Source: Neelides folsomi
Lineage: Eukaryota > Arthropoda > Collembola > Neelipleona > Neelidae
Assembly (NCBI GenBank): GCA_034687125.1
Contig: JAQGBZ010000142.1
Coordinates: 85,789-149,788, forward strand
Direction: 5' to 3'
Length of the DNA stretch: 64,000 nucleotides
Part shown: piece after piece, positions 11,565 through 44,300 of the stretch
Layout of the letters: every line of letters starts with the position of its first letter
Numbering within the stretch: position 1 is the first letter of the stretch
Program-made: the position numbers and the translations under genes
The notes under the pieces: generated by a model
Seen by the model: only the letters and a program-made list of their open reading frames with translations
What the model was told of the DNA's origin: nothing
Database searches by the model: none

Positions 11565-12448
11565 GGATATTTAAATGTGTTTTGATAATTAGATAATATC
11601 ACACTTATTTAAATTATTAGAATTTAATAGGGACGCATACCAAGAATCTTTTTTTCGAGTACAAGGCTGTTAGTGAAAATGTTAACCATTTCATTTGTAG
11701 TACGAACTTAAAATACGTTGTAAAACATTTAACATGCGACTTGGAATGATAAGAATCTTACGATTGTTGACGATTAGAACATTGAGGAATTTATTTCTTG
11801 TTTATTTATTTAAAATGGTCTACCATTTGGGAGAGAAATGTTTAAGGGAAAATACGAGGAGTTGACGATCAATTCGAGGTTAAATGCCCTTTTGACTATT
11901 AAACGTCGTAGAGGCCATATTATCTAATTTGTATTTAACTTCTGTTACATCAATTTATAAAGTTATGGCAATTTATTACAATATTAGTTAATCGTGTTGA
12001 TCGTAATATATTCTACTGGTTACATGATTAATTCTACAATAAACTAAAACAACAATCTCACTACGAACATTCTAATGTTAAAGAGAGAACATTTGGCATT
12101 GAGATTCCATCGAAGGGATGAGTTGGGTTAACTATTTATTTACAGTGAGTTAGTTATAGAATTTACGAGCAAATATTTAGTTATTCTTGCTCTCTTGAAC
12201 TTCTTTGTTCACGAGTTCAAGGGCTTTGAATGTTTTTAACACATCAGACTACGAGACTTCTTCCAGTCTCAACTTGGATTCATACGAGAACGGAACTAAA
12301 TTGGAAACAAGTAAATAATTAATTATTCATATCTCAATTTATTAATATCAATAGATCTGCAATTATCAGCATTTATTAATAAAAGTATTATTTATATAAT
12401 CATAATTCTACAATTATTATAATTTTCATGATTGTTCCTTTTCCAGTA
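11565..12448. other. Intergenic region before the gonadulin-like gene
   Basis: About 0.9 kb of AT-rich sequence with no convincing open frame. A pyrimidine-rich acceptor (ttccttttccag) ends at 12446, two bases before the start codon of the insulin-like gene. A non-coding 5' exon of that gene therefore probably lies in this stretch. I cannot place its boundaries. Confidence 0.4.
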
Positions 12449-12998
12449 ATGGGGAATTTAAGTTTAACAATTCTGTCCATGGTGGGAATTTTTGTTTTGA
12501 TGTGTCCAAGTCCTTCCACTTCCAACAGCTCGTCTTGTAAAACGAAGCGCCATGAGATTTCACTTTTGGTAACAAAAGCTTGCAAATTTTCCAAACGAAG
12601 TTCTTCCTTCCACTTCAACGGGGCAAAAAACCAAGAAATCGATGTCAAAAGATTCTTCGACACAATTAACAAATTAGGTTAAATCTGATATAAAATTTTT
12701 TTACATATATATATACGAATGTAAATGTAAATTGAACAATTTTTACAACTTGTTTGAATTTGTAGAAGAAGATTATCTCAAGATATTGATGCTAAAAGAA
12801 ATTTACGAAGATCTTGAATATCCTGTTAGTCACATTGTTTTTTATCTTCTTCTTCCACTAAATTTAATGAATATTATTTGATAGACGGAGATGAGAAATC
12901 AGCGAGATTCCAAAAATGGCGAATATGATAAAATTCTCTCACAATGCTGTCTGAATGGATGCACATACTTAGACTTCGTGCCATTTACAAACTGTTAA
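12449..12998 (+). CDS. Insulin-superfamily prepropeptide, gonadulin (Dilp8)-like
   Basis: Three exons (12449-12677, 12766-12824, 12885-12998) join in phase into a 133-residue precursor. Residues 1-25 form a signal peptide (MGNLSLTILSMVGIFVLM...). A B-chain-like segment has Cys30 and Cys45, followed by a convertase site KFSKR at 46-50. A connecting region follows. The A-chain-like end carries Cys117, Cys118, Cys122 and Cys133, and the stop codon comes directly after the last cysteine. Thus there are six cysteines outside the signal peptide in the insulin order. The A-chain begins as the insulin signature (CC-x3-C-T-x3-F) but its last gap is ten residues, not eight; the B-chain gap is fourteen, not eleven. 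Such deviation, plus the neighbouring IGF-like gene, suggests gonadulin, a secreted ligand related to fly Dilp8. The acceptor at 12446 favours the start at 12449 over the upstream in-frame ATG at 12428. No transcript support is available; another divergent insulin-like peptide is possible. Confidence 0.68.
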
Positions 12999-13888
12999 TT
13001 TTAACCATTCATAATTTTTCTACAATGCTTATTACTTAAATATTAAAGGTTAAAATTATATTGATACTTTACAACCTTATTCAAATTTAATACAATTTGC
13101 AAATTAATACATATTGTATATTTTATACATTAGTTGGTGTATTTATTTACATATTTTGTACAGGTATGCTGACAATTTTAAGACCTTCATCTTTGATTGT
13201 TTCTTAACATTATTATCATACATCCATGTATATTATAATTATGACAGAGCATGTGTGGCTAGTGTAACAATTAGTATTACACCATATATATTATCTAAAT
13301 TACCTAATTCATTAAAAGGAGAAGTGGAATATTTTTTGATTTTTTTTACTTCTGGAGTCATTGTGCAGTCTATTCAAATACTTGATTAATACTGATTAAT
13401 ATCTTTAAACATAATCTAAGTATTATTTTAATATGTATTAATATAAATAATCTAAACACGTATTCTGTATACTTGTGCCATATAATCTCAATTACTATCC
13501 ATATTCCATATTTAGTAATAATTTTATTATTTAGGTGGACTATAATACATTTAAACATTTAACATACTTATTTGTTAGTAGAGATGAGACATATTTGTTA
13601 GTAGGCGTAGTGAGAAACCCTTGAGGTTCTCTTTTAAAGTCCCAAAGCTCTATCAAAGGTTTTTTATTTTCCAACTTGAAAAATTCTTAAGGGCCTCAAG
13701 GGTTTGATCACATTTAAATTTAATTAATAGAATGAATAAAATTTTCTTTTTCTTTTTTTTCTACCTGAGCATGATTGAATAAAATTAATACCTGTAGATG
13801 TAAAATCATGGAAATATTGAAAATATTTAACTTAAATCAGTTAATGGATCTTTTGCTCGGCCAATAAATGGCCATTTGACTTAAAGGA
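12999..13888. other. Convergent spacer between the two insulin-superfamily genes
   Basis: This holds the 3' UTR of the gonadulin-like gene on the left and the 3' UTR of the IGF-like gene on the right. The open frame at 13114-13389 is AT-rich and featureless. A 12-bp perfect inverted repeat (aaacccttgagg at 13615-13626, cctcaagggttt at 13694-13705) could form a hairpin with a 67-nt loop. Confidence 0.5.
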
Positions 13889-16800
13889 TTATTTCAAGTA
13901 AGATCCGTCAAAAGTTCCTGCCGTGAGTGCAACGACGTCCGGCAGCGGCTGCTCCGTGATGAATTCCATCGTAGAGGCCAATTTTTCTTCAACTTCAGCC
14001 GTGTTATAAGCCACGTTGTCCAACTTGTCCCGAATTGTCTCGTCCGACGAAGGAGCAACGGATTTTTCCTTTTGAACAAACTGAATTTGGTGAACGTCTC
14101 TGGTCTTCTTTCCGCTCCGCCTCACTCCCGGAGGAGGGAACTGGCTGAGGATCCGAAGCTCCCCGTTAGTGTTATCGCCCCAAAGTCGAAGCAATATAGG
14201 AACCAAAGATGCCCGACGTCGGGCCTAACCAATGTTAATCACAAAATCACAATATTAGTTTAATTATTCAAAATATTAATATTTTAATGAGAATAAGGAA
14301 CAATACTTAGTGGGGGCGTTTAATATTTTCACCTATATTTTTCATTTTTTTAAAAAACCACAAACATTTTTCCCAAGAGTTTTGTTTTGCCATTCCAGCT
14401 CACACCCACCCACACCATTACTGAACTCGGATGATGTTGTCGGGTTACATTTCTCACTGAGTTGGGAATGTCTTTTCGGGATTTTGCATTAATCATTTTG
14501 CTTATTTAAATGAGCTTCAACATTGAAGATTTTTTCATTTGTGAATAATATATTTTTATATCTTCCTCTTGAAAAGCGTCGGATGAGTTCTGCACATCGA
14601 ACTTTTCGATTTTTCTCTTGCTTCTCAGTCAAAAATTGGCAATAACCCATTTTCAATGGTTTTAAACCAAGATCTTTTTTCAATGCCTTGGCCATGGTCC
14701 GGGGCGACGTGTTCATTTGATTCGCCAGTGAGCGACGAGGGTTTCTTTGAATGCAGGCCTTTAAATTTTTAATAAACTTTTGAGTTCAGACCGTTTTTAT
14801 TCTTTTCTTGGTCTAAATTCGGCAGTTCCAGTTTCTATGAGTCGCTTAAGAGTTCTATTGACGAACATTCGATTCACACCGTTTCCCTCGAGAAGCTTGA
14901 AAATCTCCAACTTTGACTTTCCTGCCTCAAAGAATGCTTGAATTGCAGCAGCATTTCGCTTTGTGGTAACTCTGGAAACCATGTTTTTTTAATTTTGAAT
15001 GAAGTTGGCGTAGTGGGCGGTACAGGACGCTGCGGCTGCGCTGCGCTGCCTTCCCCAAATAAAGGGGGTGGTGAGAGTCGGGGGGGGGGGGGGGGAGAGG
15101 AGAAACTATAGCAAGGTAAAATGTAAAAAAATTGAACGAATTCGTGTTTTTCTCACCATTTTCACTCCGCTTCTTATGCTGAGTGTGAAGAACAGGGGAT
15201 GAATTTTCCAAAAAGTTTAATTTTCTTTTAATTGCCATATATCAAGCTTCATTTTGATGTATTACTCTTGGGAAAATTGTTTGTGGTTTTTTTAAAAAAA
15301 ATGAAAAAAATATAGGTAAACATTAAACGCCCCCACTAGGTATTACATATTACAAATCATTGAAATCATCAACGGATAAACTCCAGCATATAAAACAAAC
15401 AATATGGTACAAATTGCAACATGTATTATGTAATTTCTTAGAAATAATGGCAGAAATTGAAAGGCAGTGCATTTGTACAGTAATACATTAATATTGCAAA
15501 TCTCATGCAGAAATGCAAAAATGCATATAGATGTTATAGGTCTGTTAAAAAGTTATTAGTGAAAATTTAATAATGTTAGGGGATAGGCAGTAAAAAGAAA
15601 TAAATAAGGCAATGTCAGCAATGGTTGTTTCCTCTACTATTAAAATATATACTTATGATGAGATTCATGCACTCGATCAAGACAAATTAATATAAACTTT
15701 AGGGGGAACATTTTACATAAAAGGTAATGGTGGTAATATCCAATTAAATAAATCATTGTTCGAATTAAATGACTTGCTTCCCATCGTAAATGCTGTGAAA
15801 TGGTGAGATTTTAATTGCGCTTTCATTTTTCTTTCCAATGAGTAATAGAACTTGGTTTTATACGTGAGGAATTCAACTTTATTGAACCAAATCTACCTTT
15901 GTCGGTAAAAGGTGAATCAATGATGAAGTGAATGAACGAGAACAAATGGTGGAAGTTCAAAGGATCCCAAACATTAAATTATGGTCATTTAATATCACTT
16001 CATTCATGAGATGGAAAAAGAACAACTTTAATGGCTTTCTAATTTCTATTCAACTCATTCATATTATAAAATAATTGCAATTGAATGGAAAACATTTGTG
16101 ATCAAAATGTAAAAATAATTTTATGTTTTAAAATCCAAGCAATCTCAAATAAAAATTTTAATAAAATGAAAACGAAAAAGACCTTTTTTGGTCCTTCCAG
16201 CTCCACAAAGAAGAATTGGAGAGAAATTGAAAAAAAACTTTCCGTTTTTCCTTTCTCATCTTTCCTTCTCATTTCGCCCTGCCCCAATTGACAAAAATAT
16301 GTATAATTAAAAGCAAATAGAACATTTTTAAAGAACTAATTATGATTAGTTGCCAACAGTTAGAATAGACATTGATTAAAGTTTTTGTATTTGCAACAAG
16401 AAGCTCCAGAGGTTAACAACTTTTAAAATTTTAAACCAAATATCGGTTTTTAATTAAATGGAATCTCACTTGTTTATCTTGTAAGGATGTTAGAGCCGAC
16501 AGGTTTGAAAAATTCCTATGATTGTTTTAATTATTCATTTCAATATAACCATTAAAGATTTTACCTAATTAGTCATTAAAACACACCTGTCCAAATTCCC
16601 AGCGCAATATTTGACCATTTCGGATCTTGAACATGGTTTGAGACAGCATTCCTGAATGAGCCCTCGCGAAATACGCCTTAAAATATTGTTACCTTTCATT
16701 TTCCCTCCCCGCTTTTTGCTAGCTATTCAATTCAATTAAAATTAACAATTATATATTAATTAAATTAATCAATTAAAAATAAACTTAAATTTAATTGCCA

Positions 16801-17059
16801 AAAGTAATATAAAATAATCAATCGTTAAAATTAAAATTAAAATTAATAAAAAATACAATCCACCTTTTATCTGTTCAAAACGTTGACTTGTTGAGGAATC
16901 GGGTGAGTAAAAATTATATTTGCAGAGATGAGTGAGCATTTGGGAAAGCCGATGGCCGCAGATTCGTCTTTCAAATTGACGGTCGATCGGGCGAGTGGAA
17001 CAATGAAAGACGAAGATGAGGACAAGAATCAAAAGTCTCATCAATAAAACCCTGTCCAT
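13889..17059 (-). CDS. Insulin-like / arthropod IGF-like precursor with C-terminal extension
   Basis: Secreted ligand expected to act on insulin-type receptors. Exons 17059-16864, 16722-16587, 16515-16470 and 14224-13889 join in phase to a 237-residue precursor. A signal peptide covers about residues 1-22 (VLLMRLLILVLIFVFHC). The B-chain RRICGHRLSQMLTHLCKYNF has Cys34-x11-Cys46. A short basic C-peptide contains KKR and LRR cleavage sites. The A-chain GLIQECCLKPCSRSEMVKYC (86-105) matches the insulin A-chain signature CC-x3-C-x8-C exactly. After the A-chain come a 46-nt micro-exon (two possible N-glycosylation sites, NFS and NLS) and a 111-residue tail opening with ARRR. A chain-sized insulin fold plus a long C-terminal tail is the layout of arthropod IGF-like peptides. 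The insulin motifs are certain; the micro-exon and last exon are inferred from splice sites and phase. Without splicing at 16587, translation would stop eight codons later (at 16565). Confidence 0.82.
14310..15336 (-). mobile_element. Degenerate Tc1/mariner element in the last intron of the IGF-like gene
   Basis: Inverted termini of about 55-60 bp (gtgggggcgtttaat... and its complement) are flanked by TA dinucleotides at 14308-14309 and 15337-15338, the usual mariner target-site duplication. Inside, the minus strand encodes transposase pieces. A helix-turn-helix-like N-terminus lies at 14982-14797. A middle part lies at about 14790-14489, ending in ILFTNEKIFNVEAHLNKQND, which resembles the mariner motif around the first catalytic Asp; here that position reads Asn. 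A frameshift with stops separates the pieces and the rest of the catalytic domain is missing. The element is 1027 bp and cannot encode an active enzyme. A 16-G run (15080-15095) lies between the 5' end and the coding remnant. Confidence 0.85.
14489..14982 (-). pseudogene. Mariner transposase remnant
   Basis: Two minus-strand fragments in different frames. The first (14982-14797) starts MVSRVTTKRNAAAIQAFFEA and ends FRPRKE before a stop. The second includes ACIQRNPRRSLANQMN, then LTEKQEKNRKVRCAELIRRF and the FTNEK motif, then stops. Frameshift, internal stops, the Asp-to-Asn change and loss of the C-terminal half all indicate a dead copy. Confidence 0.8.
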
Positions 17060-37100: not shown

Positions 37101-38384
37101 TGATAATTAAAATCATGGTTTTAAAGTGTTGATAAAGGTACAAGGTTTCAAATAGGAATTTCAAAGTCAAAGAACAAAAGAGGAATTGTTCTTAAATCAT
37201 TCCACCCGAAGGAGTTGGAATTTAATGGATCTGGCCTATAACAAATCGGAATGTCAGTTATATTAACATAATAACAAGTAAATTGATTAATATCCATCTT
37301 TAGCTTCATTTAACATCAATATTTAACATTCCCTATTTAATATTGTATACTTAACCATTATTTATTTATAAGATTTTAATGTTTACTTAAATTAATAATT
37401 AGACAACCATCTTACATTTTTTACATAGGTAAAGACAACAGGTATTCAGACATTACAATTAGACATACCAATTGGTATTTTGTCTTATTGTTTGGTTAAG
37501 GTTTGTATATTTAAAAGTTTAAATGTGCGCATTATAATTTTAAATTAATTAACGTATTTAATGTTAATGCTCGTTTCCTCTTGATAATGTCTTGTTGGTG
37601 TTTGACTAATTAAACTAATTTTTAAATATTTATAATAACTTGTATTTATTATTCACCACAAGACAACAACATTTAAGTATTCTATTGTGCACTAGAAATA
37701 CACACAACAATGTTTAATGTTATTTATTATGATTATTAAGAATGAAGCTTGGACTTTTACGAGTGAATGCCTTATTATAAATAATTATCTGTATAATACA
37801 TAATTTAATGGAAAATAACATTGGACTTTATTCTATGATAGTTCTAGGGGTTAAATATGGATCTAATTACCCGAAACTCCTCCTAATGACCAGACTAAAT
37901 GACCAGATTACATTATTAACAATCTCATAAAGAAATCAATTATTTGTATACTCTACTATAATACATAATATAAGATCCTGTGGATCTTGTCGAATATCTC
38001 TATAAGATATACCTTAAGTACATAATTACTAATATTGGTATTTTAATTACGAATTATAATTGAACAAGTAGCAAGGTTTCAACCACAATGAAATCACATT
38101 TAGCACCACAAGGGATCCATGACTTGTTAATAATACTCATATGTATCTGTATATGTATTCTACAAATACACGACTATAATATTAAATATTACATAAATAT
38201 TTTATATCAATAAATATTAGATTTAATCTTAAATGTGCAGTGTAGCAAATTACAAGTGTATTTTTTAAAGCTTAAAACCAGTGACTTTGAAGGAATGTTT
38301 GACTAACATTAAAATTTGAAAGGAATCGAGGGTACAATAAAATTATTAAATTTAATGAGAACAAGGGACCTATGGAAGTGTTTC
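34153..38384. other. AT-rich intergenic region, 4.2 kb
   Basis: The region between the BCKDK start and the NOS stop. A 73-codon minus-strand frame at 35812-35591 and a plus-strand frame at 36252-36473 are the longest, but neither has signal, domain or splice context that I trust. Much of the stretch is simple A/T-rich sequence. I see no RNA gene or defined transposon. Confidence 0.45.
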
Positions 38385-41300
38385 TTATTTGGCTTGACTC
38401 AACGTGTAATTTGATTCGATTTTGGTGAGTGCAGACGTTAAAGCTGAAGTGTGAACTTCGGCTGTCCGATGTGTAATCCCGAAAATATCTTCATGGTATC
38501 GATTGTCGTCCTGTGAATAATTCATTCATTGCTTGATTCATCCAATTGGGATCAATATTTGTATTTAAATAATAATGAGAAAAACGTTCGAACCCTCAAG
38601 GACATCATATATCCCTCAGCTTCGTTTTCATTCATCTGTTGGCGTTTTTGGAAAATGGCTTTAAGCGTTTGGTAAACATCTTCAGCCATGGTGCAATCCC
38701 CGCACACAAAAATATGACCGCCATTGTCCATCACTTGCTCGGAAATGCTCTCGCTCTCGCGGATCAACAAGTCTTGCACGTATGTCTATTAAATATTAAA
38801 TGAATCTTAGTTATGTTTAATTTCTACATTCACTTCTTCTCACTTTCCTTTTTATGGCAAATAATTTCAAGTTTGTTATAAAAATTTAATTGATATCAAT
38901 TTTTAATTTCGGTATCAAAATTTAACTTTGTTATCAAATTTTAATTTCGATGTGAAAATTTAATTTTGATATGAAAATTAAATAACCTTTTTAATGTTGG
39001 GTTCCCTTGAGAGGGCGAGGAAAATGTCCGCTATGACGCCTTGGGTTTTCATTTCCTCCAATTCGGATCTGTAGAGGATCATTTCCTTCGTTCTGCATCC
39101 GAAGAAAAGGGTCATTTTCCCAAATGACCCTCCTTGACCTCTTAGCAATTTCCGATGATGCCAAAAACCCCGAAAGGGGGCAATTCCCGTCCCAGGACCG
39201 ACCATGATAATTGGTCGAAGGGGATCCATCGGGACGTGGAAACTCGGAGCGCTGAAAAACCATTAATTTATTCAAACCCTTGCATGATCACAATTAGATA
39301 AACTGTAAAAAAAATCTCCATTTACTTTTCTTATTCCATAAATCAATTGATAAATGGTTCATTGAATAATTTATTAGTTTGGGAGTCTGAGAGAAGAAAT
39401 GAATTAAATGGGAACAGGTTGAGTTTTCTCTTACAGGAAGGATTGATTCATAAATGAATTGTTTATCTGTGTAGCACAACTCGTTTCCTATTCCCCTTCC
39501 AAGTCTCAAAGGGTTGAAAGCGGAAAATGAGAGTTAGCGGCTTAGAGTGAATCAAATACTCGTTATTACAGTTAGTTAAACATTGCTGCATTATTGAATG
39601 CATCTCAATGTACAATTAACAACTATGTACATTTATATATACAGAGATGAGAAAAAACGTTCAGACTGGCGCCATTCAACCCCATCAATACTTTTAATTC
39701 TTAACCTTCTCACAAAACACGGGACGAGGGTTTGGAGAGGAACGTCACTGAGGTAATTTGAACAAACGCCGTAGTTGAGCGGCCCATCGCCGCCTTTAGT
39801 GTGATACGCCACGACCGCGACAGTCAAATGCAATTCCTTCTCGTGAACCAACGGGGATGAGGAAACGCTGTAAAACCGAGGTTGGAGAATCGGAAGCATC
39901 GTACAAAGAATTTTGGCGTCTGGGCGAACAAATGGGAAAAGATCCAAGACGGTGACAAAGTTGGGCCAATGCCATTGTTTCCAATGTTCATACTCGTCCG
40001 GGTCCTGCAAAACCACATCATTAAAACAATTAACATATTTATAACATTTACAGTGTGAAATAAAGTCAAGTAACATTAAAAGTAGGAAGGAAGGGAATTG
40101 ATTAAATTAGCAATTTAGCATAATCTTACTAATTTTCATTTAATACTAAATTCTTAAATAATACTAATGTATTAATATAATAGCTAATATTGTATAACAT
40201 ATTACATAGTGTATTACAATTGTACATTTGTATTTGTACAATTTCCTCAATTTACAATTAATTATTATATCTAATTGGCTTAATTGGTAAATGCATAAAT
40301 GGGATTTTGTGAAGGTGACCTTTGCAAGTGTTGTGAGTGTTTGTTTTTCCTCTTCATCGTCGGTGCATCGGAGTAGGTAAAGGAGGAGATTCGGGCGCGG
40401 CGGTGTCGTGATGTCCAAGTAACGGGTGAAGAGTTGCCTTAAGCTGCATCGAGGAAGCCGCTCATGAGGAATCCAATGCTTCTGCACACCTAAACCCAAG
40501 TTGTTCCTCTCACGTTCTTCTAACTGTTCCCTCACCCATCGGCGTGTGTTTCTCCTGGAGGAGTTGAAGCTGAACCGGTTCGTCGCTGCTCTCCGGTTTG
40601 TTCACCAACCGAGTAAGAATGGCCTCCACCAGCTCGGTCCGATTGTCGGCCAAGATCCCAACATGGTCCCCAGAATGGTAACTCAGACCTTCGTTGTCCG
40701 CCCCCTTCCTCAACACGATCTTCATGGTGGATCGACTGGGAAAGAAAATGTTGGGCCCAAATCCTTCATCTCCTCATTCTCCTCACCTTCCTGTCTTCTC
40801 GTGGAGTTCTTCCTTCTCATCCAATGTGTAAAAACTAACTTTACGATTGTGGACCCGAGACAGAGCTGTTAATCAAATGAGTCAATAACCCAATTACATA
40901 ACCAATTAACTTTTGTTTAATTAGCTAGCGGAGGAATTAAAGCTCAATTAATTCGATTAGCTAATTAGGAACCTTCAATTTCTGGATCGGGGGCTGAGAC
41001 CGGAATGAACCGAACGTCTTCAGGAGACAAAGTGTCGGCCTTCAACGAGGCAGAAATTTCTGCCATGTTTTTGTCACAATCGAGACAAAAAGACTCACAA
41101 GCCACCTTGGAACATTTCATATAACACCATACATATTAGATAAAACGAATGGGTGAAACTTTTCCTCACCTGAAAGACCTGAGTTGCCCAAGTTCTAAAT
41201 GCCTGGTCCTGCCCTGCGAGTTCATCGCCCATTGTCAACTTGGCCAAACGCTCTCCGCCAAGTTCGCCCAATAAATTGTCCACGTAGCGACCAAAAGCGC

Positions 41301-44300
41301 AAAAGTTTGGATATGCGCTCGACCCAAGAGCAAAAACACCAAACCTGTAAACCCAAAAATGCGAATTTCAAAATTGTGACCAAAATGGAATTTCGATGAA
41401 ATTTCATTATACTTTAATAAATTATATAGGTAAATATCATTATTGTAGTAATGATGATACCGTATGATTTATATATTATTTTCAGTGGGTATTTGCAAAT
41501 TAGTATAATGTGTTTACGTAATGTTTCGTAAAGGGCCTGAGGTGTCGTCTGACATTACATCTGACATTTGGCTCCCTTTGAAGGAATCGTTCCTGTCGAA
41601 AGTCCTCCGATCGAAGACAGAGTCAGTTTGGCTGTTCATCTTGATGAAGGATTTGGATGTGGCCATGCTACATTCCAATGATTAGGAATTGTCTCATCCC
41701 AAGGGAACCTTACTTTATCCCGTGATCGTCTCCTGCCATGAACCCCTGGTTCATCTTGATTGCAAACAGGCTGTGGGCGAAGGACTAAAAAAACATTTCT
41801 CAATCAAACCGACTCTTTTTAGTTAAAGGTCAATGAGTTCAAAAATTGAGTTAATCATTTCTATTATTCTGTTCATACAATGGTAAAGATACATAAAGAT
41901 ATATAATATTTTAAGTACTTATATCCATGTAATAACAATTATTACGTTATTTACTTACTAACGTTATTTACTGTAGTGTTTACATATTGTACCTACTGAT
42001 ATATTTACATATAGGATATTACATGTAAATATGTACCTAATATTGTATGTTATATATACAACATGTTAGTTATTATTTTATTATGTAATGAATGGTTAAA
42101 TGGCATAATAAAATATTTATACGCATTCCTTGCTATACTTTATAAATGCATTGTACTCATTTTCCCTTGTGCAATCAACGATGTTTTGAAGATAATTAAT
42201 AAAAGTTGACCTCTCCGTTCTCGGGAGGGTCCCCATTTCCAAAAGTGGAAGTGACGACCAAAATCAGCGTCTCGTGCTCAATGTTGATGATGTCGTAGGC
42301 GTCCATGCAGTAAACCTAAAGGGAAGGAAGAACTTTAAAAAGACCCGGCTTTGTAGCGGGGACTAAAAGAGGAATGGACAATGGATGGGCTAAAAGGAGG
42401 AATGAGAGCGGGAATGTTTGGCTACCTGGGAATTAAAGGCGTGGCCGAATATTTCTCCAAGTCTCCTCGCGTACATTTCCGCTTTTCCCGTTTCCGTCCC
42501 GTAAAGAATTGTGGCTTTGATTCGCTTCGACAACGCCTTGCCAAAAAGCTTTGAAGTGAATTTGACCGCCTTGGCAATGTCTTTAAATTTCAGACGATTC
42601 ATTTTTTTCTGATTTTTTTGCACTTCCCCCCCGTCCCGGGCATTTTTCTTCCATATGTGAGTTTTCCATGCGGCGTCCTGGTACTCGTAATTTGGTTTAA
42701 GATGATACAAAGCCATTTCCTGGTGGAACACCGGCGTGGCGCTGCCGGACATTGGCGGAACGATCCAAACCCAATCAGCCGGGCAACCCCCGCGACTTCT
42801 CAGCTCATTCTCATAATGTTTCATGAATGATTCGGAGGCGCTGTGATGGTCAACCACCGTCACTCCCGACCTCTTTGAATAAACCTTGTTTAAGGGTGAA
42901 TTAAAAATGCGAAATTAAATACCTGGAAGCTGTACAAGACGGCAAGGTTAAGCTCGACCATTGCCCGATCCTTCCATAACGTAGTTGGGTTTTTGGTATC
43001 GAGATCCATCTGCAGAGCAACTTCCTGGAAAAACCCATTCATCTTCATTCTTTCCATCATTTGCATGAATTTGGGGGGAAGTGGAAGCAACAGCCTCTCG
43101 TAATGACCCGCCCTCAGAGAGAGGAAATTGGAAAATCGATGTCGGCTGTTGCTCGCCACTTCCCACCTCACTCATTTACATTGATTAGCATAAAGAGACC
43201 GGACCTCTAAGACATTGTAGCGGTGGGCGTCTCCAAGGTCCCTGGACCCGATCTCTGTCCCCATGTACCACCCGTTGAACGGAGCTGCTGTGAATTCAAG
43301 TCCACCGCAGTCAAAGAGCATTCCAGACACGGCGGGGAGCGCGTACCATCGGAGATCCAACTCTGGGAACCACTCGAAGCTGCGACAAACCGGATTAGAA
43401 AAAAGTTAAATGGATTACATCAAATGGATTACATGAAATTACATCCAATGGATCAAATTATTCCAATGAATTATAACTGGAATTTTATAACTTAACTAAT
43501 TTCTACGTTATAACTTTGTAATTACAAAGGTTTATATAGTAATAATACTGTATATAACTCCTACTTGGGATGGTGGATCGAGACTTCCAAGATGTATTCA
43601 GAAGGGATTTCAAAGTATTCGGGATCGTGGCCGTCGGCGGAGAGGACGAGAGGCAAAATGTCCCATCGGCTCATTTTCCCTTTCCAACCGAGCTTCATGC
43701 AGATCTAACCGGGTTTGCATAACTTCGTTAAAGATACATTGAAGTAAATAGAATGAGTCATTGGTATGAGATCTCGGGTCTGGTGGTGGTAATTGGGACG
43801 GACCTCTGTCAGCTCCACGTTGACAGGATCCCCCAAAATCGTCCCGTCAGGCATGTGGTAGCCGGCATAGCTCACAAGTTGAGGATTCCAAATACGGAAA
43901 TCGTGTTTCCCATCCGTCCTTTGAGGAAAAACCGAAATGGCCGATCTGAAATCCCAACAATGTCATTCTTGATAACTTTTCTCTTTTAGTACCTTCGTTA
44001 AATTATATTAGCCGAAATTGGGAAATTAAAATGGAGATTAGATTTAAAAATTATAAAAGTTAAGATTGTTGCCGAATGGAGGAAATCATCAGTTTATGAA
44101 ATGTTTCATTTGTCCATTCATAATATTGATATTCAGATCATGTTCAAAAGTGGAGGCATGTTGCATAGGAAATTCTCTCAATTGAAATTCAATAAATATT
44201 GAATCTCTCTATAATGCCCCATACATTCAAATGGGAGTTTATGGTTCAGAACTTGATTTTCCATTCCTACTTGACTTTATCATTATATTTCTCATCTAAC

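Follow-up and report, generated by a model that had tools for sequence, protein, structure and literature searches.

A divergent insulin-superfamily gene, probably a gonadulin, next to an insulin/IGF gene in the springtail Neelides folsomi

In the genome of the springtail Neelides folsomi we found a three-exon gene that almost certainly encodes a member of the insulin superfamily and that is probably the springtail orthologue of gonadulin, a relaxin/Dilp8-type hormone, whereby the likeness to gonadulins was judged from published descriptions. The gene is located on the plus strand of the stretch of 64,000 nucleotides that was analysed as a whole (hereafter the window; C142:85789-149788, contig JAQGBZ010000142.1) and has an insulin/IGF gene as its neighbour. 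The first-pass annotation had termed it a divergent insulin-superfamily gene, which is well supported by the architecture of the precursor and by chance controls, and a probable gonadulin, which we regard as likely in view of the adjacent insulin/IGF gene, the gene structure, and a relaxin-type hint in the A-chain. Gonadulins are hard to detect, since their sequences are barely alike. This kind of hormone is already known, and it is Collembola as a taxon that appears to be new; a search of open-access full text yielded no paper on gonadulin in Collembola and, judged by the titles listed, none on springtail insulin-like peptides.

The three exons join in phase exactly as had been noticed from the sequence alone (Table 1). 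Spliced together, they give 402 nt in frame, which run from the ATG at 12449 to the TAA at 12996-12998 and translate to a precursor of 133 amino acids; the two predicted introns of 88 and 60 nt are both of the GT-AG type and lie in phases 1 and 0, respectively. We enumerated the in-frame models between this ATG and this stop (5 one-intron and 75 two-intron models), and the present one obtained the top splice-site score, whereby the scoring used simple consensus scores of our own making and the enumeration retains the six cysteines by construction. Exon 2 is supported by no known protein. Just in front of the ATG there is an acceptor-like site, which suggests an intron in the 5'-UTR; sites of at least 11 pyrimidines within 10 nt occur at 33 of the 1240 plus-strand ATGs of the 64-kb window. 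The translation also bears out the signal peptide, which was called by eye and by hydrophobicity, and the six further cysteines in insulin order. The cysteines of the precursor are at positions 19 (within the signal peptide, with 10 residues between it and the first B-chain cysteine), 30, 45, 117, 118, 122, and 133, so that the spacing is, as originally described, x14 for the B gap and CC-x3-C-x10-C for the A-chain, with the stop right behind the last cysteine. The canonical insulin signature is C-x11-C and CC-x3-C-x8-C, compared to which the A-chain has two extra residues before its last cysteine. From C45 to the A-chain the distance amounts to 71 residues, which makes for a long C-region. 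The convertase site that had been proposed after the B-like chain is present as KR at 49-50, and further KR pairs are found at 33-34 (within the B gap) and at 67-68, while there is no dibasic pair between residue 68 and the A-chain.

Table 1. Features of the gonadulin-like gene and of the neighbouring insulin/IGF gene (positions in the window; a slash marks the exon-intron border).
Feature	Position	Strand	Content	Signals and phase	Basis
Gonadulin-like gene, acceptor-like site	12431..12446	+		12 of 14 pyrimidines, then AG; ends 2 bases 5' of ATG
Gonadulin-like gene, exon 1	12449..12677	+	signal peptide, B-like chain C30-x14-C45, KR site, start of C-region		translation
Gonadulin-like gene, exon 1 donor		+		TAG/GTTAAA, phase 1
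Gonadulin-like gene, exon 2	12766..12824	+	59 nt, C-region alone	acceptor TTGTAG, donor CCT/GTTAGT, phase 0	predicted
Gonadulin-like gene, exon 3	12885..12998	+	end of C-region, A-like chain CCLNGCTYLDFVPFTNC, TAA stop		translation
Gonadulin-like gene, possible poly(A) signal	13042..13047	+	44 nt past the stop	ATTAAA	single six-base match, weak
Neighbour, exon 1	16864..17059	-	signal peptide and B chain, C-x11-C
Neighbour, exon 2	16587..16722	-	short C-region and A chain CCLKPCSRSEMVKYC, CC-x3-C-x8-C
Neighbour, likely exon 3	16431..16515	-	C-terminal extension past the A chain		putative, no homology

Similarity searches returned little for this precursor. The Pfam family Insulin (PF00049) scored 15.1 bits against the joined precursor (E 0.046), which is below the curated cut-off of 23 bits, and two unrelated Pfam families, also weak, slightly outscored it. 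In a genome-wide Pfam Insulin search, which was carried out exon by exon, the gene is absent from the three hits at E <= 10 (three candidates scored); these hits, all over the cut-off, are located at 16604-16966 on the minus strand of the window and on contigs C258 and C330. The protein-database search with the joined precursor gave no homologue at E <= 10 (five word-sharing candidates), whereby springtail proteins were included in the database. When the whole precursor was compared with the PDB, no insulin was retrieved, and the sole match at E <= 10 was an unrelated kinase coiled coil (E 1.1). The A-chain alone, compared with 177,635 distinct PDB sequences, gave two matches at E <= 10, both of them INSL3 A chains (E 0.39 and 0.41), and in the alignment its start CCLNGCT stands opposite CCLSGCT. 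INSL3 acts on a relaxin-type LGR, and the match may be taken as a weak but unprompted relaxin-type hint. Besides this CC-L-x-GCT start, the gene would have in common with vertebrate INSL3 and the relaxins that it likely belongs to the GPCR-ligand class, whereas its B gap is longer and the similarity is only weak. A second genomic copy was not found at E <= 10; the three matches all lie within the gene itself. Very low similarity to other insulins is described for gonadulins in passages of Veenstra (PMC7357564). Against a gonadulin it would count that no springtail homologue was found and that the KR inside the B gap could be cut by a convertase.

The neighbouring insulin/IGF gene extends from 17059 to 16431 on the minus strand, 3.4 kb from the gonadulin-like gene and tail to tail with it. 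Its joined protein reaches 41.7 bits against PF00049 (cut-off 23), and 27 PDB sequences match it at E <= 1, among them chains of insulin, IGF-II, bombyxin, and DILP; the protein database gave nothing at E <= 10 (seven word-sharing candidates). If the donor after the A chain (CAG/GTGTGT) is used, the neighbour has a C-terminal extension like the arthropod IGFs, whereby this donor and the acceptor ATAG preserve the open frame. Without splicing after the A chain, the frame stops six residues past ...NLDR. The extensions of arthropod IGFs have been overlooked when such a donor was ignored, as a passage of the same article points out (Veenstra, PMC7357564). The neighbour is thus probably an arthropod IGF (aIGF), an assignment for which we rely on the putative C-terminal exon. 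Passages of Veenstra (PMC7357564) give four arguments for gonadulin orthology, namely clustering in similarity trees, expression in the gonad, an LGR3 in the genome, and a syntenic aIGF gene, and report that gonadulin adjoins aIGF in three insects and two spiders (cockroach, termite, stick insect, and the spiders). The synteny argument would apply here too, provided that the neighbour is an IGF gene. The tail-to-tail orientation of the pair was counted against the gonadulin reading, as was the outcome of a Pfam scan, which detected no third gene (relaxin) beside the pair.

The adjacency allows for another explanation, in which the gonadulin-like gene is a fast-diverged, springtail-specific tandem copy of the insulin/IGF gene and hence belongs to the insulin superfamily without being a gonadulin orthologue. 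The short distance between the two genes and the phase-1 C-region intron that they have in common would fit such an origin, and local duplication of IGF genes is known from spiders and the stick insect (passages of PMC7357564). However, the likeness to aIGF ends with the superfamily, this intron, and the adjacent locus: the gonadulin-like gene stops at the last A-chain cysteine, whereas aIGF, and seemingly also the neighbour, carries a C-terminal extension, and the gaps are longer in both chains. In addition, the A-chain with its CCLNGCT start matches only INSL3 in the PDB, whereas the neighbour matches insulin, IGF, and insect insulins. We therefore consider a tandem copy unlikely. Overall, four insulin-superfamily genes were found in the genome, of which only the gonadulin-like one departs from the x11/x3/x8 spacing. 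The two further ones, L003 (C258:77418-80498) and L004 (C330:9157-12363), were examined as candidates for a Dilp7-type relaxin; both show canonical spacing. The C330 gene seems to be intronless, and its A-chain (CCHQGCT) weakly matches IGF-II, relaxin, and INSL3 in the PDB.

The gene structure bears on a further alternative. According to sections of PMC11863921, genes of the relaxin/Dilp8 type carry a phase-1 intron within the C-region, and their signal peptide and B-chain are not separated by an intron; in genes of the Dilp7 type, a phase-2 intron and a spacer lie between the two. The predicted model agrees with the relaxin/Dilp8 type, as its C-region intron is in phase 1 and exon 1 is unbroken from the ATG through the B-chain. 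This evidence weighs against a Dilp7-type gene more than it speaks for gonadulin, because the insulin/IGF neighbour has the same phase-1 intron. With arthropod gonadulin and Drosophila Dilp8 the gene otherwise has in common that the B-like chain directly follows the signal peptide, that there are six insulin-type cysteines, that similarity to other insulins is very low, and that an IGF-like gene is adjacent; it differs from them in its host, a member of Collembola, and in the predicted second C-region intron (phase 0). A diverged arthropod relaxin of the Dilp7 type is nevertheless worth weighing, since it would also belong to the superfamily, relaxin is part of the same gene triplet in some arthropods (passages of PMC7357564), the A-chain carries a relaxin-like GCT, and the sole relaxin-receptor-type GPCR found (see below) could be an LGR4. 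However, the intron and the spacer that would be expected of it (PMC11863921, in the sections cited above) are missing from the continuous exon 1, and passages of PMC7357564 describe arthropod relaxins as much better conserved than the other hormones of this group, whereas the present gene is poorly conserved and stays below the Pfam cut-off. A Dilp7-type relaxin is hence highly unlikely.

The insulin-like arrangement of the gonadulin-like gene is more than chance. For the controls, a loose A motif was defined as CC-x3-C-x7-11-C with a stop within 12 residues and an AG upstream in frame, and a B-like partner as a frame with hydrophobic start and Cx10-15C at most 1.5 kb upstream of the A motif; these limits were chosen after the finding was seen, but are wide enough for canonical insulin. 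The A motif occurs twice in the real 64-kb window, both times with a B-like partner, and the two occurrences are the gonadulin-like gene and the neighbouring insulin/IGF gene. When the window was shuffled 200 times with its dinucleotides preserved, the A motif appeared on average 0.02 times per 64 kb, and the combined A and B arrangement never appeared (0/200). Neither the motif nor the arrangement was present in 36 control loci from the same genome (167,364 bases, whereby L030 with its 3.6 kb sits within L041 and is thus counted twice). Of the two further insulin genes, the same scan recovers that in L003 but not that in L004, where the tail past the last cysteine exceeds the limit. Codon-usage scores are low for the gonadulin-like gene (-0.017) and for the Pfam-supported neighbour (0.016), like those of open non-coding stretches, and codon usage is uninformative for both genes alike. 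A decayed gene, or a chance set of open frames without a product, would agree with this codon usage but is scarcely credible, given that the arrangement is missing from all shuffled windows and control loci, that 133 codons are intact with canonical splice sites and an acceptor before the ATG, and that the neighbour scores equally low.

A candidate receptor for the gonadulin-like hormone, as judged by its domains and relatives, is a relaxin-receptor-type GPCR encoded on the minus strand of contig C234. The gene comprises at least one LDLa (37775-37897), leucine-rich repeats (33.8-33.2 kb), and 7TM exons (27.3-25.5 kb), whereby the LDLa and LRR scans scored best candidates only and the counts are thus lower bounds. 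Among solved structures, relaxin receptor 1 comes closest to it (E 3.5e-89). Among the 120 listed of 175 proteins at E <= 0.001, a tick receptor had the top score (42% identity over 90% of the query), while the highest identities were those of partial proteins from Allacma fusca (69%) and Folsomia candida (64%), each over 48%. On two trees, for which 38 and 31 proteins were taken from the 120 listed, the receptor falls within a springtail clade (support 100/99 and 100/100), which marks the host as a springtail and speaks against a mite; the arthropod receptors form one clade. Vertebrate RXFP1/2 served as proxy for the LGR3 type and the mollusc Lottia for the LGR4 type; the latter receptor was so taken because molluscs are said to be without LGR3 in sections of PMC11863921. 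Four AU tests did not separate a placement of the arthropod clade beside the one from a placement beside the other (p 0.17 to 0.54). The same sections name introns in TM2 and TM5 as marks of LGR3 genes in humans and starfish (PMC11863921). In the C234 gene the TM2 and TM5 introns are absent, and an LGR4 intron after TM7 was not identified. The C234 receptor is therefore only a candidate and is not counted as support for LGR3.

Searches with the C234 exon and with Xenopus RXFP2 gave, besides C234 itself, matches on C127 and one weak match on C52. On C127 (G000:C127:118200-119531, minus strand) lies the 7TM region of a second LRR-type GPCR, which we take to be of the glycoprotein-hormone type by its ERW motif. 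Thus, one relaxin-receptor-type GPCR was found in the genome, the one on C234, whereby in the 7tm_1 survey the frames were inspected for 30 of 148 listed matches. The assembly has 75.1 Mb in 840 contigs, a size that we assume to be small for a springtail in comparison with Folsomia. It may be incomplete, which weakens the absences of a relaxin gene and of a second LGR.

As read from the sequence, the gene encodes an intact secretory precursor with a signal peptide, a two-cysteine B-like chain, a long C-region, and a four-cysteine A-like chain, whereby the chains would form three disulfides of the insulin type. Cleavage is possible at the KR behind the B-chain, and the product may remain a single chain or be cut elsewhere, because a dibasic site just before the A-chain is absent. 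For locust gonadulin, the authors leave open in a passage of their paper whether there are one or two chains (PMC8220825). The hormone would probably be secreted constitutively from the gonads, and perhaps from growing tissues too, and would probably act via a relaxin-receptor-type GPCR with leucine-rich repeats, for which the C234 receptor would be the obvious partner, and not via the insulin receptor kinase. In this way it might convey the status of gonads or growth. With only one GPCR of this type found in the genome, a simple test of ligand and receptor is possible.

With a springtail gonadulin, the published synteny of gonadulin and aIGF would reach a lineage of hexapods that are not insects, and its sequence would be of use in searching other springtails for the gene. 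Tentatively, and with less than even confidence, we suggest that springtails retain the gonadulin-IGF pair of the ancient triplication, with both gonadulin chains lengthened (x14, x10), no recognisable relaxin gene, and one relaxin-type GPCR that maybe serves a single ligand. If true, a basal hexapod would offer this ligand-receptor pair in reduced form, and Dilp8-type signalling in growth and gonad could be studied there alone.

Between the two insulin-family genes of the window there is an element of about 1.04 kb (14302-15344) with terminal inverted repeats of 56 nt that are 86% complementary. Its minus-strand open frames resemble by eye a broken transposase of the Tc1/mariner type; Pfam gave no hit on two of its frames. 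Across the genome, 37 chitin-bind-4 cuticle hits were obtained, as well as three hits of the odorant-receptor family over the Pfam cut-off, the best of which reaches only 36 bits. Finally, a nitric oxide synthase gene is represented in part in the window, at 39633-42914 on the minus strand, with the Pfam domains NO_synthase, flavodoxin, and FAD-binding.
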